The notes beneath the pieces were generated by a model. It made no database searches and was not told the DNA's origin. It worked only from the letters and a program-made list of their open reading frames with translations. From positions 283,458 to 325,180 of the forward strand of contig MKTC01000016.1 of assembly GCA_001897535.1 (NCBI GenBank): DNA of 41,723 nucleotides, given 5' to 3'. Origin of the DNA: Bacteroidetes bacterium 37-13. Its GTDB lineage: Bacteria > Bacteroidota > Bacteroidia > Chitinophagales > LD1. The stretch's first letter is position 1, and every line of letters begins with the position of its first letter. This document shows, piece by piece, positions 177 through 41,723 of this stretch. Both the position numbers and the translations under genes were made by a program.

Positions 177-1700
<1,524 letters not shown>

Positions 1701-37740: not shown

Positions 37741-39055
37741 TTGACAATTCTTTTGCTTTTATTGGTGCTGAATTATTTTGTTTTTGTTCGTACGGACGAA
37801 TTATCAAACGGATATTTCTATCGTAGTTAATGTAGTTCCAAATCCAGTTAATGAGTACCACAATTTTATTGCGAAAACCAACCAACATCAGCAAGTGTAA
37901 ACCCATCCAAACTAACCAACCCAAAAAGCCACCAAACTTCATATTGTTTACTTGTACCACTGCTTTATTTCTACCGATTGTAGCCATACTTCCCTTATCG
38001 AAATAACTAAAAGGCATTAGCGGTTTCTGCTGAATTAACCTAAGAATATTTTTTGCCAATAATTGCCCTTGCTGCATGGCAACAGGTGCCACCTGAGGAT
38101 GTCCTTTCGGATATTTTTCTTCGTGCTGCTGCAATGCCACATCGCCAATGGCAAAAATATTTTCAAAGCTATGTACTTGGTTTATCTCATTGCAAACATA
38201 GCGACCACGAATGGCAGATTCTTCAGGCAAACCGCTAATTACTTGACCTTTTACACCTGCAGTCCAAATTAAATTATAGGTTGAAATTTCTTTTCCTCCG
38301 GCAGTATAAACTACTCTTCCATCGTATTTTGTAACACGAACATCTAACCAAACTTCTGTGCCTAATTCTTTCAGATAAGAAAGCGATTTTACTTGATTTT
38401 CAGGCAGCATATTTTGCAATACTTCCTTTCCGCTTTCAACTAAAATCACACGCATTTTTCGCAAGTCGAGCTCGGGATAATCAGCAGGCAAAACATGGTT
38501 TTTAAGTTCGCATAAAGCACCAGCTAACTCCACTCCGGTTGGTCCACCACCCACAATAGCAAAAGTCATCAATGCTTCTTGTTCTCTAATATCAGAAGTA
38601 AGTAAAGCCTTCTCAAAATTCTGCAATACTAAACTGCGTAAATTCAGCGCTTCTGTTACTGTTTTCATTGGCATTGCTTTTTCTGCCAAGCCTTCAATAC
38701 CAAAAAAATTAGTGGTAGTTCCAGTTGCAATTACCAAATAATCGTAATTCAAATTCCCAACAGAAGTTTCAATCTCATTTTTATCTGAATTTATCTTTTT
38801 CACTTCGCACCAGCGAAAAATAAAATTCTTCTGCCCTTTAAAAATTTTTCGAATAGGATAGGCAATAGAATCTGCTTCTAAACCTGCGGTAGAAACCTGA
38901 TAAAGCAAAGGCTGAAAAGTGTGATAATTATGTTTATCAATCATTACAATTTGCACATCTTTATTGGGAAGTGCTTTTGCTAACTGCAAACCGCCAAACC
39001 CACAGCCTACAATAACTATGCGCGGTTTATCTGTTTCAGGAATACCAGTTTTCAT
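37727..39055 (-). CDS. ndh: Type II NADH:quinone oxidoreductase
   Basis: Non-proton-pumping NADH dehydrogenase passing electrons to (mena)quinone, on the inner face of the membrane. The 442 residues contain the FAD fold RIVIVGCGFGGLQLAKAL (residues 17-22 the GxGxxG), the NADH fold FAIVGGGPTGVELAGAL, and IFAIGDVA near 300 with the quinone-site VAPVAMQQGQLLAKNI. A C-terminal hydrophobic anchor (FLGWLVWMGLHLLMLVGF, KIVVLINWIWNYI) is present. ATG was chosen over a TTG 30 bp upstream. Its last 14 bp overlap the convergent ketosynthase gene. Upstream lies the divergent TPP-riboswitch locus. Confidence 0.92.
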   Translation of the reverse strand: MKTGIPETDKPRIVIVGCGFGGLQLAKALPNKDVQIVMIDKHNYHTFQPLLYQVSTAGLEADSIAYPIRKIFKGQKNFIFRWCEVKKINSDKNEIETSVGNLNYDYLVIATGTTTNFFGIEGLAEKAMPMKTVTEALNLRSLVLQNFEKALLTSDIREQEALMTFAIVGGGPTGVELAGALCELKNHVLPADYPELDLRKMRVILVESGKEVLQNMLPENQVKSLSYLKELGTEVWLDVRVTKYDGRVVYTAGGKEISTYNLIWTAGVKGQVISGLPEESAIRGRYVCNEINQVHSFENIFAIGDVALQQHEEKYPKGHPQVAPVAMQQGQLLAKNILRLIQQKPLMPFSYFDKGSMATIGRNKAVVQVNNMKFGGFLGWLVWMGLHLLMLVGFRNKIVVLINWIWNYINYDRNIRLIIRPYEQKQNNSAPIKAKELSITQS

Positions 39056-39228
39056 TATGCTATATTTTGTATCAGTTAATTTCAATTTATCTTATGCAAA
39101 GGTTACTATGTATTACGTTTATCTTACTACTTTTTGCTATTTATCTTGAATATTTTACAATCAATTTACATAAGCAGCTTGTTTTAACCAATATTTTGAA
39201 GTACAAAAATTGCGCTTAATATTGTAAC

Positions 39229-39320
39229 TGCTTTCTGGGGGTATTTCGATGTAAAAAATCGGGATTGAGAGAGTCCCTTTGAACCTGAACATGTTGATAC
39301 ATGCGTAGGAAATGAAAGCA
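39229..39320 (+). ncRNA. TPP (thiamin pyrophosphate) riboswitch aptamer
   Basis: The conserved THI-box architecture is present. P1 is TGCTTTC paired with GAAAGCA. P2 is GGGG with TCCC, and P3 is CGAT...ATCG. The pyrimidine-sensing core reads TTGAGA (CTGAGA in most). CCCTTTGAACCTGA follows, then P5 CATG...CATG and GCGTAGGAAA, the pyrophosphate-side signature. It controls the TonB-dependent receptor downstream, so thiamin uptake is repressed when TPP is plentiful. Confidence 0.95.
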
Positions 39321-39406
39321 GGAATAGATTTCGATTTATCCTGCCTTGGCTCTTCACTTTTTCGGAAGGCTTTGAAATTTTTTTAAAACTAAAAATCAAA
39401 GCCATG
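39318..39406 (+). promoter_or_regulatory. Riboswitch expression platform with AUG-sequestering hairpin
   Basis: Three helices that exclude one another can be read. (a) GCAGGA-A-TAGAT, loop TTCG, ATTTA-TCCTGC (39318-39344) borrows GCA from P1. (b) GCCTT (39343-39347) pairs with AAGGC (39366-39370). (c) GGCTTTGA (39368-39375) pairs perfectly with TCAAAGCC (39396-39403), extended by T5/A5 past an AA bulge, ending at the base before the ATG (39404). Helix b competes with both a and c. No Shine-Dalgarno exists, so control is probably by occluding the start codon region; early termination at b plus T7 is an alternative. Confidence 0.6.
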
Positions 39407-41602
39407 AAAAAATTATTTTTCATCACCATGCCTTTTCTTGTTGCGGCACAGCAACCAGACACTTTAAAAACATTTACCGCAGATGAGGTAATTGTAAGTT
39501 CCACGCGCGCAGCGCTTAACACACCAACCACATTTTCGCTTATTAAAGCAAACGAGCTGAAGAATGTAAATCTTGGTCAAGATTTGCCCGTTCTGTTAGA
39601 TTTTTCGCCATCTGTGGTGAGTACCAGCGATGCCGGTGCAGGCGTTGGCTACACCGGAATGAGGATTCGCGGGAGCGATGCCACAAGAATAAATATTACC
39701 GTAAACGGCATTCCGATAAACGATGCCGAAAGCCATTCTGTATTTTGGGTAAATATGCCCGATTTATTTTCGAGTGTGGAAGATGTGCAAATACAGCGCG
39801 GTGTTGGCACATCTACCAATGGAGCAGGTGCATTTGGCGCTTCGGTAAATATGCGCACACAAAAAACTTCACAAAAAGCTTATGGCATTTTTTCAGCTTC
39901 CGGTGGGTCTTTTGGCACTGTAAAACTCTCGGCACAAGCGGCTTCCGGTTTAATTAAAAATAAGTTTTTTATTGAAGGTCGTTTTTCAAAAATAAATTCA
40001 AACGGCTATATAGAGCGTGCCACAAGTGATTTGTGGAGTTATTTTATCACTGCCGGCTTTCAGCACAAAAGAACGCTTTTAAAATTTGTAACTTTTGCAG
40101 GAAACGAAAAAACATACCAAGCTTGGAATGGTGTTTCTGAAGAAATGTTGAAAACAGATAGGCGATACAATAGTGCCGGAACAGATTATGGCGCAAAAGA
40201 ATTTCCTTGGAGAAATGAAATTGACAAGTATGGACAACAATATTATCAATTACTTTTCTCGCAAGGTTTTGGCAGAGGTTTTTCGCTGAATATCGGCTTA
40301 TTCACCACACTTGGAAAAGGTTACTATGAGCAATACAAAGTGAATCAAAAACTAAAAAAATATATGCCGATTTTTGATTCTACATTAGTATCCCAAAGAA
40401 GTGATTTAATTAGAAGAAGATGGCTTGATAATGTATTTTATGGAAGTACTTTTTCGCTAAATTACGAAAGAAGAAATTTTAATATTTCGCTTGGTGGTTT
40501 ATTAAGCCAATATCGCGGAAAACATTTTGGAAATGTGATATGGAATGAGCAAGAATTTAGCTTTAATAAGAACGCGCACTACTACGATAATCACTCGCTT
40601 AAAAATGATTTTAATGTGTATTTAAAAGCCGATTACACCTTCTTAAATCGCTACACTCTTTTTGCAGATATTCAATATCGGCACATAGATTACAATGGTG
40701 CGGGAAAAGATAATGATGGAGTGAATATACAATTCAACAAACATTGGAATTTTGTGAATCCCAAAGGCGGAATTGCTATTGCAATTAGCAACATACATAA
40801 TGTTTACACTTCTGTTGCAGTTGGCAATAAAGAACCTAATAGAGATGATGTTGCTTATAGCAGAGCTACAAAAAGCGAAAACATGATTGACTGGGAAGGC
40901 GGCTATCAATTCAGGCATAAAAAATTTCCGTTGCAACTGAATGGCTACTACATGTACTATAAAAACCAATTGGTGCTAACCGGAAAATTAGATGATGTAG
41001 GAAATGCCGAGCGTGTGAATGTGCCTACAAGTTTTCGCGCGGGCATTGAGTTGAATGGTGCTGTGAAATTTTATTCAAAAACTACGGAGCGTGAAATTTT
41101 TAAAATAGGTTACAGTTTCACTTATGCTCAAAGCAGAATAAAAGAATTTACACAACTCACTCCAACTTACGATAACGATTACAACTATATTGACACGCTT
41201 CTGCTTCAAGAAAAATTTCAGCATACAAGAATTGCTTTTTCACCTGATATTATTGCAGGTTTAGAACTAACCGGAAGCCCGCTCCCGGGTTTAACTTTAT
41301 CGCTAAATACGAAAGCAGTAAGCAAGCAATATTTAGATAATACTCAAAATGAAAACAAAAAGCTAAAACCTTATAGTTACTCAAATTTTAATGCTGCTTA
41401 CACTTACTACTTTCCAAAAAACAGAAGCATTACCATTTCGCTTTTGGTGAATAATATTTTCAATTTTATGTATGAAAATAATGGCTACACTTACAGCGAA
41501 AGATACTACGACAATGGCGTGTTACAAACGCCTACTGTTTACAATTTTTACTACCCACAAGCAGGAATAAATTTTTTGTTTGGAGTTAGAGTGAAGATAT
41601 AA
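39404..41602 (+). CDS. TonB-dependent receptor, thiamin-regulated
   Basis: Outer-membrane gated barrel, predicted to import thiamin or a precursor, 732 residues. Signal peptide MKKLFFITMPFLVAA-Q. A possible TonB box (ADEVIVSS, about 25-33) precedes the plug domain (about 40-155: LPVLLDFSPSVVSTSDAGAGVGYTGMRIRGSDATRINITVNGIPIND, then FSSVEDVQIQRGVGTSTNGAGAFGASVNMRT). The 22-strand barrel ends ...QAGINFLFGVRVKI. No N-terminal carboxypeptidase-like or STN domain is present, unlike SusC types. Substrate is inferred from the TPP riboswitch in its leader; similar thiamin-regulated receptors are known in Bacteroidota. A PnuT-type inner-membrane partner would be expected but is not within the window. 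Confidence 0.93.
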   Translation: MKKLFFITMPFLVAAQQPDTLKTFTADEVIVSSTRAALNTPTTFSLIKANELKNVNLGQDLPVLLDFSPSVVSTSDAGAGVGYTGMRIRGSDATRINITVNGIPINDAESHSVFWVNMPDLFSSVEDVQIQRGVGTSTNGAGAFGASVNMRTQKTSQKAYGIFSASGGSFGTVKLSAQAASGLIKNKFFIEGRFSKINSNGYIERATSDLWSYFITAGFQHKRTLLKFVTFAGNEKTYQAWNGVSEEMLKTDRRYNSAGTDYGAKEFPWRNEIDKYGQQYYQLLFSQGFGRGFSLNIGLFTTLGKGYYEQYKVNQKLKKYMPIFDSTLVSQRSDLIRRRWLDNVFYGSTFSLNYERRNFNISLGGLLSQYRGKHFGNVIWNEQEFSFNKNAHYYDNHSLKNDFNVYLKADYTFLNRYTLFADIQYRHIDYNGAGKDNDGVNIQFNKHWNFVNPKGGIAIAISNIHNVYTSVAVGNKEPNRDDVAYSRATKSENMIDWEGGYQFRHKKFPLQLNGYYMYYKNQLVLTGKLDDVGNAERVNVPTSFRAGIELNGAVKFYSKTTEREIFKIGYSFTYAQSRIKEFTQLTPTYDNDYNYIDTLLLQEKFQHTRIAFSPDIIAGLELTGSPLPGLTLSLNTKAVSKQYLDNTQNENKKLKPYSYSNFNAAYTYYFPKNRSITISLLVNNIFNFMYENNGYTYSERYYDNGVLQTPTVYNFYYPQAGINFLFGVRVKI

Positions 41603-41610
41603 AACAAAAA

Positions 41611-41639
41611 AGCACTCCGCCTTTTACCTTCGGAGTGCT
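41611..41639 (-). terminator. Intrinsic terminator, copy 1
   Basis: AGCACTCCG and CGGAGTGCT make a 9-bp GC-rich stem with an 11-nt loop. On the minus strand it is followed by a run of T (TTTTTTGTTTT) and fits a terminator for leftward transcription coming from beyond the right edge. On the plus strand it lies 8 bp after the receptor gene but is followed by GTACCTG, so it would be weak in that direction. Confidence 0.75.
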
Positions 41640-41696
41640 GTACCTGTTATGAAAATCTTTGGTTCGTTTCTTGCTTAATTTTTTCAGGTTTAAAAA

Positions 41697-41723
41697 GCAC
41701 TCCGCCTTTTACCTTCGGAGTGC
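41697..41723 (-). terminator. Intrinsic terminator, copy 2 (at contig end)
   Basis: The same hairpin, GCACTCCG with CGGAGTGC, is followed on the minus strand by TTTTTAAACC. Together with copy 1 it would form a double terminator for a leftward gene outside the window. Confidence 0.65.

Follow-up and report, generated by a model that had tools for sequence, protein, structure and literature searches.

A TPP riboswitch upstream of a Bacteroidota TonB-dependent receptor gene that may use Shine-Dalgarno-independent strand exchange to control translation

Introduction

How a translational riboswitch works in a phylum that hardly uses Shine-Dalgarno (SD) sequences is a question of practical interest, and it is raised by the leader of a TonB-dependent receptor gene of Bacteroidetes bacterium 37-13, which carries a TPP aptamer. 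The stretch of DNA analysed in the current work (the window) comprises 41,723 nucleotides of contig MKTC01000016.1, and all positions below refer to it. An earlier note on this leader had proposed that its platform hides the AUG instead of an SD sequence, and that the ligand acts through a three-step relay of competing helices. The computational follow-up described here indicates that the masking reading is right in principle and that the relay is not supported.

Results

Aptamer, receptor gene and genomic context

The presence of a TPP riboswitch before the receptor was confirmed by a match to RF00059 on the forward strand at 39227-39329 (bit score 55.4, gathering score 54.3, E 2.5e-8), which is the sole match (n=1) in the window genome. 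Its position upstream of a TonB-dependent receptor of presumed function in thiamin uptake fits the genomic placement of this family, and the aptamer is predicted to bind TPP; by inspection of the alignment, its first P3 pair is A-U, the consensus being G-C. The features of the leader are listed in Table 1.

Table 1 Features of the receptor leader and gene in the window
Feature	Position	Strand	Remarks
TPP aptamer	39227..39329	+	RF00059 match, single in genome
P1 5' strand CTGCTTTC	39228..39235	+	8 bp possible with 39314-39321
Proposed exchange strand (P1 5' strand and following bases)	39230-39239	+	Complementary to platform
P1 3' strand GAAAGCAG	39314..39321	+	P1 pairing
Aptamer core segment	39266..39275	+	Pairs 39348-39356 in modelled TPP-free fold; alone p 0.61 against shuffles
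Hairpin a (UUCG hairpin)	39318..39344	+	In modelled TPP-free fold; GCAG common to P1 3' strand
GGCTCTTCA	39348..39356	+	Same letters in congener; pairs aptamer core in ON model
TTCGGAAGGC, mimic of P1 3' strand	39361..39370	+	Final three bases are the mask start; pairs 39230-39239 without TPP (model)
Mask 5' strand GGCTTTGA	39368..39375	+	Kept in L003
Mask 3' strand TCAAAGCC	39396..39403	+	Adjoins ATG; kept in L003
A/U hairpin AUGAAAAA..UUUUUCAU, start codon at foot	39404..39423	+	Inside coding sequence; similar hairpin in L003
TonB-dependent receptor, 732 aa, presumed thiamin receptor	39404..41602	+	Pfam Plug; TPP-like core upstream of relatives

A TPP-like core lies upstream of 71 of 80 related receptors on genome contigs, these being matches to a pattern with 3 substitutions allowed and not individual Rfam scores, and upstream of 9 of the 80 no TPP element at gathering level was found; in one locus (L069) the single TPP match sits after its receptor. 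Within the family of the window, a TPP match is present in 27 of 30 genomes and is followed by a receptor, by inspection, in 24 of these 27. Relatives of the receptor were not found among viral contigs. The window genome (G000), rated 100% complete, contains no match to ThiC (PF01964), so that the receptor may be the main entry route of the vitamin, and the bacterium is probably a thiamin scavenger. A PnuC-family transporter (PF04973, 5e-51) is encoded on another contig of the same genome (L159, G000:C6:134917-135450). Just after the receptor gene a AAAGCACTCCGCCTTTTACCTTCGGAGTGC hairpin occurs twice (41609-41638 and 41694-41723), the second copy ending at the contig end.

Shine-Dalgarno sequences in the leader and in the genome

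Neither GGAG nor AGGA is present in the 20 bases before the receptor ATG, and the sequestor contains no SD sequence, which places the leader outside the SD-sequestering class. The occurrence of SD words was determined at -20..-4 of 220 predicted genes of the same contig and compared with two background stretches (values in brackets). GGAG (4; 6, 4), GGAGG (1; 3, 2), GAGG (1; 5, 4) and AGGA (5; 7, 6) are not enriched, AGGAG is slightly up (3; 1, 0), and A is enriched before the starts, reaching 0.45-0.50 at -13 to -10. The window genome therefore shows little or no sign of SD use, in agreement with the little SD use in Bacteroidota described in the available portions of three publications (PMC6847099, PMC9976891, PMC10783764).

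The 16S rRNA gene of the window (177-1700, minus strand) ends in the 3' tail GGCTGGAACATCTCCTTTT, with UCUCC, not CCUCC, as its anti-SD core. The pattern used for this tail matched in 7 of the 30 family genomes, reading GGAATACCTCC in five genomes of genus g2, GGAATATCTCT in G021 (g3) and GGAACATCTCC in the window; the core seems, as judged from these tails, to be degenerate in some genera of the family only.

A helix adjoining the start codon

The helix singled out in the earlier note, here termed the mask, is present: GGCTTTGA (39368-39375) and TCAAAGCC (39396-39403) are complementary over all 8 bp, and the ATG at 39404 follows directly. On its inner side the stem is lengthened by UUUUU/AAAAA (39378-39382/39391-39395), while the AUG can form the foot of a second hairpin (39404-39411/39416-39423) that is seen in many folds containing the mask. 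In every fold that includes both strands and does not forbid their pairing, the mask has a probability of 0.97-0.98, irrespective of whether the aptamer is enforced. The mean unpaired probability at -15..+15 is 0.24, compared with 0.44+-0.08 for 60 shuffles, none of which is as low, and just 4 of the 220 predicted starts on the contig, that of the receptor among them, are as closed. As a pairing alone the mask is not beyond chance, the best start-region helix of the window having a score of 20.0 (z 1.2 and p 0.12, with dinucleotide-shuffled versions of the leader as reference), and a comparison with relatives was therefore needed.

In the congener G002 (locus L003) both mask strands, the ATG junction, CTGCCTTGGCTCTTCA and GAAGGCTTTGAA are identical to the window, and differences are seen in the P3 loop, in the interior of hairpin a and in the loop of the mask. 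Hairpin a, the UUCG hairpin (39318-39344) on which the relay was built, is real, its structure being kept with a changed sequence in L003, and it reaches a probability of 0.87-0.92 in folds of the window unless P1 is enforced.

Recurrence of masking among relatives

The statistic used to compare leaders is the best helix between the leader and -12..+33, evaluated against shuffles that keep the coding sequence and the leader dinucleotides. Loci L004, L005 and L008, in which the TPP element precedes ThiS/ThiC-like ORFs (by inspection) and no receptor, were dropped, as were L058-L060, which are the same loci as L026, L009 and L017 (the family loci L058 and L059 sit in records named Chitinophagales bacterium). 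A receptor is present in 10 of the 30 loci L028-L057, and those 10 were used; the 68 remaining pattern-positive named loci yielded 58 tested ones, with 46-199 nt from the aptamer to the first ATG, of which 55 have a GGGG usable in the P2 test. For L013, L017, L021, L022 and L054 the start codon was reset manually to the Met of the signal peptide, and the starts of control genes are first-ATG predictions.

For the family (24 receptor leaders from 4 genera) the mask helix has a mean z of 1.73, with p<=0.05 in 10 of 24, compared with -0.09 for control genes of the window genome (n=219, 16 at p<=0.05). The mean is 1.11 for 10 leaders from other families of the order (4 at p<=0.05) and 1.10 for 58 leaders elsewhere in Bacteroidota (16 at p<=0.05), and Mann-Whitney comparisons of z with the controls give 7e-8, 0.017 and 2e-6 for family, order and remaining phylum, respectively, values that overstate independence because the leaders are related. 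Nine related receptors without a gathering-level TPP element upstream, some with uncertain starts, have a mean z of 0.18. Individually, 14 of the 24 family leaders miss p 0.05, L007 has a mask z of 0.0, and in L020 and L022, which carry long inserts, the mask was not found within the 80 bases examined. The opening energy is significant against shuffles (p<=0.05) in 4 of 24 family leaders and is higher than that of control genes (p 7e-8); the unpaired probability around the start reaches p<=0.05 in 8 of 24, a weak statistic for the family, given that many relatives have the AUG in a loop.

The masks differ in sequence: GGCUUUGA/UCAAAGCC, UCUUCAUGUCU/AGACAUGAAGA, AGAAAGAAUAAU/AUUAUUCUUUCU and GGAGUAAAA/UUUUAUUCU (the latter two having the coding strand in common), and further AAGGUUUUAA/UUAAAACCUU, CCUCUCA/UGAGAGG, UCCGGAU/AUCCGGA and CGGGUU/AACCCG. 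Other families of the order have UGUUCCCAAAA/UUUUGGGAACA (L040) and UGCAGGCCUCG/UGAGGUCUGCA (L054), and in the flavobacterial mask UUUUAUUCGUAA/UUACGAAUGAAA the AUG lies within the stem. The 3' strand of the mask is early coding sequence in many relatives and precedes the ATG in L001, L003, L021, L026 and L027. It is the principle of masking, and not one sequence, that recurs in relatives.

In L002 (G001, same genus), TCTTCATGTCT pairs with AGACATGAAGA across the AUG (-63..+6), and the sequence at its start, GACATGAAG, is similar to that of the P1 3' strand (GGAATGAAAG), so this start may itself mimic an aptamer strand. A hairpin TTTTATTCGTA(A)/(T)TACG(A/G)ATGAAA with the AUG within its stem, adjoining a CCCC that matches AAAGGGG of the P1/P2 5' strand, was observed in L103, L117, L120, L121, L122, L130, L132 and L135 (records of Flavobacterium, Maribacter and Kriegella).

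The P1 5' strand as candidate exchange strand

Five aptamer segments were scanned against the platform of the 24 family leaders in an exploratory manner, and the P1 5' strand was picked as the best of the five (mean energy z -1.15, 9 of 24 at p<=0.05). The corresponding values are -0.57 and 2 of 24 for the aptamer core (UGAGA), which was accordingly dropped as main exchange partner, -0.43 and 0 of 24 for the P1 3' strand, -0.31 and 2 of 24 for P2 5', and -0.02 and 1 of 24 for the L5 segment. By inspection, the P1 3' strand matches the mask 5' strand in genus 4 and in L002, where it may act as exchange partner.

The P1/P2 5' strand, scored against the platform without gaps, has a mean z of 2.18 across the family leaders; 14 of 24 reach p<=0.05 and the other 10 individually miss this threshold. 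The reversed query and a different segment of the aptamer have mean z values of 0.30 and -0.01, respectively. In the window, GCUUUCUGGG (39230-39239) pairs with UUCGGAAGGC (39361-39370), a stretch here called the mimic (score 19.2, p 0.030 against shuffles); the equivalent pairing in G002 is AGCUUUCUG with CAGAAGGCU (p 0.017), all 6 leaders of genus 4 pair GUUUUCCGG with (U/C)CGG(A/G)AAGC (p<=0.010), and the mimic of L002 is weak (p 0.88). Overlap between mimic and mask 5' strand was seen in 15 of 24 leaders (7.0 expected) in one analysis and in 13 of 24 (5.9 expected) in another. Elsewhere in Bacteroidota, AGGGGU matches a CCCC element with a mean z of 1.00 and p<=0.05 in 13 of 55 leaders (mean z 0.09 with the query reversed), and this element overlaps the mask in 17 leaders, with 9.8 expected.

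No such signal was obtained in the other families of the order for the P1 5' strand against the platform (z -0.04, 0 of 10 at p<=0.05); the control aptamer segment has a z of 0.89 there, perhaps due to its covering GAACAGGG. By inspection, L033, L040, L042 and L052 contain a CCTGTTC stretch complementary to the aptamer GAACAGG. In L040, the leader sequence CCCTGTTCCCAAAA matches both the coding sequence TTTTGGGAACA (start of M-K-K-L-L-G-T) and the aptamer GAACAGGG; L042 and L052 resemble it, and in L033 CCT/AGG takes the place of the CCC/GGG of the others.

In the covariance analysis of related genomes, which the earlier note had suggested as a check, changes on both sides are few. For the mask, one g2 pair changed on both sides, and shuffles show as much; for the pairing between P1 5' strand and mimic, covariation is found in two core columns (-4 and -1), and the paired fraction is 0.858 with own partners versus 0.785 with partners from other genera. 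Covariation support for the mask and the exchange helix is thin, and a clean proof by this route failed.

Coupling, sign and timing in predicted folds

When the pairing of P1 5' strand and mimic is imposed, 21 of 24 leaders open at -20..-1 and 22 of 24 at -15..+15, with a mean change of 0.138 each. With shuffled platforms (12 shuffles each, 276 usable of 288), opening is observed in 147 of 276 and 173 of 276, with changes of 0.011 and 0.022, respectively. The AUG triplet itself goes from 0.42 to 0.47 (change 0.053, p 0.39, not significant), and in the window it is paired in both the ON and OFF models. Of the proposal that the platform hides the AUG and not an SD sequence, the closed initiation region and the little SD use hold; in the family model the pairing that changes is that of -20..+15, and not significantly that of the AUG triplet.

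Full-length unconstrained folding was abandoned as a test of switching, as the mask always wins, and truncated nascent leaders are more telling. When leaders are cut just after the mimic and folded without constraints, the pairing of P1 5' strand and mimic exceeds 0.5 in 21 of 24 (mean 0.78), compared with 73 of 225 folds with shuffled platforms (mean 0.31). In the window, the probability of the mimic helix declines with the RNA end, from 0.996 at 39375 to 0.415 at 39406 and 0.013 at 39440, and for RNA to +40 values above 0.5 are reached in 2 of 24 leaders, which is not more than in shuffles (21 of 225). When P1 is enforced in the window the mimic helix is gone and the mask, once made, has a probability of 0.98; in unconstrained folds the P1 helix exceeds 0.5 in 0 of 24 leaders. 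The ON and OFF models of the window have energies of -48.0 and -49.4 kcal/mol, ligand term excluded, and the unconstrained minimum for RNA to 39440 (-54.0), which contains the mask, lies below both. The ON-OFF gaps average -6.4 kcal/mol, with -3.4 for shuffled platforms; L017, L018 and L025 exceed -11, and L002 has +1.7. Since the mask wins at equilibrium once its 3' strand has been made (RNA to +40), whether or not the aptamer is enforced, the switch would have to be kinetic, as far as fold predictions can be taken as a guide.

Proposed mechanism

From the sequences, the complementarities, their recurrence and the folds we infer ligand binding, a kinetic order and an effect on translation as follows. 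In the nascent leader without TPP, GCUUUCUGGG (39230-39239) would pair with UUCGGAAGGC (39361-39370), enclosing hairpin a and the helix between core and GGCUCUUCA. This pairing would take GGC from the mask, leaving the landing region before the AUG open for a time during which the receptor could be made, after which the mask would displace the open form. With TPP bound to the nascent aptamer, P1 would close by pairing with its own 3' strand, leaving the mimic free, whereupon GGCUUUGA could pair with UCAAAGCC as soon as the latter is made. The initiation region would then be closed and the gene therefore OFF, the sign expected for an uptake gene. On balance, the model in which a TPP riboswitch with no SD target acts on translation through strand exchange is considered probable, with appreciable room for doubt. 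Direct exchange of the P1 5' strand would explain the conserved GAAGGC and give TPP = OFF.

Alternative explanations

An explanation of a different kind, judged unlikely and still the strongest of the alternatives, is that the mask is a constitutive brake keeping translation low and that TPP acts elsewhere, on decay of the message, Rho or intragenic termination. This would account for the dominance of the mask wherever a fold includes its 3' strand and leaves the mask allowed, and for a mimic helix that is no commoner in RNA to +40 than in shuffled leaders. A constant brake would, however, need none of the overlap of mimic and mask above chance, the opening of the start in 22 of 24 leaders or the nascent dominance in 21 of 24. 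In addition, the available part of Costliow and Degnan 2017 (PMC5613172) reports no significant change with thiamine in the expression of transport operons of B. thetaiotaomicron, nor in its receptor transcript. The relay of the earlier note, in which P1 blocks hairpin a so that GCCTT (39343-39347) is freed for AAGGC (39366-39370) and the resulting helix b blocks the mask, is regarded as very improbable. All of its strands exist, with GCCTT and AAGGC identical in the congener, and enforcing P1 does abolish hairpin a; yet helix b has a probability of 0.0 in all folds with both strands, including those in which the mask is forbidden, apart from 0.113 when the aptamer is enforced and the RNA ends at 39375. 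Furthermore, the core helix and the P1-5' mimic account for the same bases, and the relay read literally makes TPP an activator, and therefore has the wrong sign for an uptake gene.

Slightly less credible again is transcription attenuation, in which the hairpin 39343-39384 and the following U residues would terminate transcription when TPP is bound. The U-rich TTTGAAATTTTTTT after AAGGC, with a similar stretch in L003, speaks for it, but the stem has 5 bp with a loop of 18 bases, 4 U are found in the next 8 bases, and leaders of other genera have no such U stretch at the equivalent place (by inspection, uncounted). A terminator at 39343-39384, which the earlier note had named as a finding that would overturn its reading, is unlikely: a scan of 39000-39500, covering loops of 3-8 only, returned 0 terminator-like sites, and with no intrinsic terminator found in the platform within that scope the leader falls outside the transcription-attenuating class. 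Least probable of all is that the mask is a by-product of A/U-rich signal-peptide codons (Lys-Lys, Leu, Phe) pairing with A/U-rich leaders. Several masks use exactly these codons; nevertheless, the mean z of 1.73 was obtained with shuffles that keep both coding sequence and leader dinucleotides, related receptors without the riboswitch have a z of 0.18 (9 loci, some starts uncertain), and in five loci (L001, L003, L021, L026 and L027) the 3' strand lies before the ATG.

Discussion

The thiM and thiC leaders of Escherichia coli carry translational OFF TPP riboswitches, the exchange strand of thiM being located on the 3' side. The strand-exchange model proposed here for the window resembles these systems in its RF00059 aptamer and in a ligand-stabilised P1 that frees a sequestor ahead of a thiamin gene. 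It differs in that the window leader has no SD sequence to sequester, the sequestor covering the surroundings of the start instead; in that the proposed exchange strand is the P1/P2 5' strand, unlike that of thiM; and in that many relatives of the window place the 3' strand of the sequestor in the first codons. Strand-exchange riboswitches are described, in the available text of a review (PMC10907184), as having a switching sequence common to aptamer and platform, mostly in the first helix, and in the model a P1 strand of the window aptamer would likewise serve both. In favour of this class are the complementarity above shuffles, the opening of the start and the nascent dominance; the full-length folds, in which the mimic helix does not dominate, speak against it. 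That text describes occlusion of the RBS (and AUG), and the term 'bacteroid' occurs 0 times in it.

Direct occlusion, for which the available part of a classification scheme (PMC2258182) sets a start codon <=15 nt from the aptamer core, does not apply, since P1 of the window ends at 39321 and the start is at 39404. In the same part, translation control is assigned by default and the hiding structure is not predicted. A TPP element upstream of a receptor is also found in Bacteroides (PMC5613172, in part), and a 2019 Bacteroides preprint from the Costliow/Degnan group, cited by title as reference 47 in the portion of PMC7366714 available, announces that TPP riboswitches regulate transcription or translation; start-region masking may already have been proposed there. 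In Flavobacterium johnsoniae, where SD sequences are lacking, low pairing at -20 to +20 accompanies initiation (PMC6847099, available portion); this is genome-wide tuning, whereas the model for the window involves masking under ligand control. Among the titles and abstract openings listed, a scope that leaves preprints and most subscription papers aside, no description of start-region masking by Bacteroidota riboswitches was found.

The evidence is evenly poised as to a broader proposal, namely that Bacteroidota have a translational platform class of their own. In such a class, the start region (leader to about codon 9) would be one strand of the sequestor and the P1/P2 5' strand would exchange co-transcriptionally, with AGGGGU against CCCC in much of the phylum and CUUUCUGG against C(A/G)GAAAG in the family of the window; it would have been rebuilt many times with different sequences and would constrain the first signal-peptide codons. 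If true, the strand-exchange model for the window offers testable ON and OFF strands with TPP = OFF as prediction, a reason for the conserved early codons of thiamin receptors, and a design rule for Bacteroidota switches.

Two records deserve separate mention. Locus L038 (G040:C68) has two near-identical tandem TPP aptamers before its receptor, corresponding to two matches in G040. Locus L101, in a record titled as a Klebsiella pneumoniae MAG, has a receptor, leader and start hairpin of the Bacteroidota type, and the record is probably mislabelled or a mixed bin.
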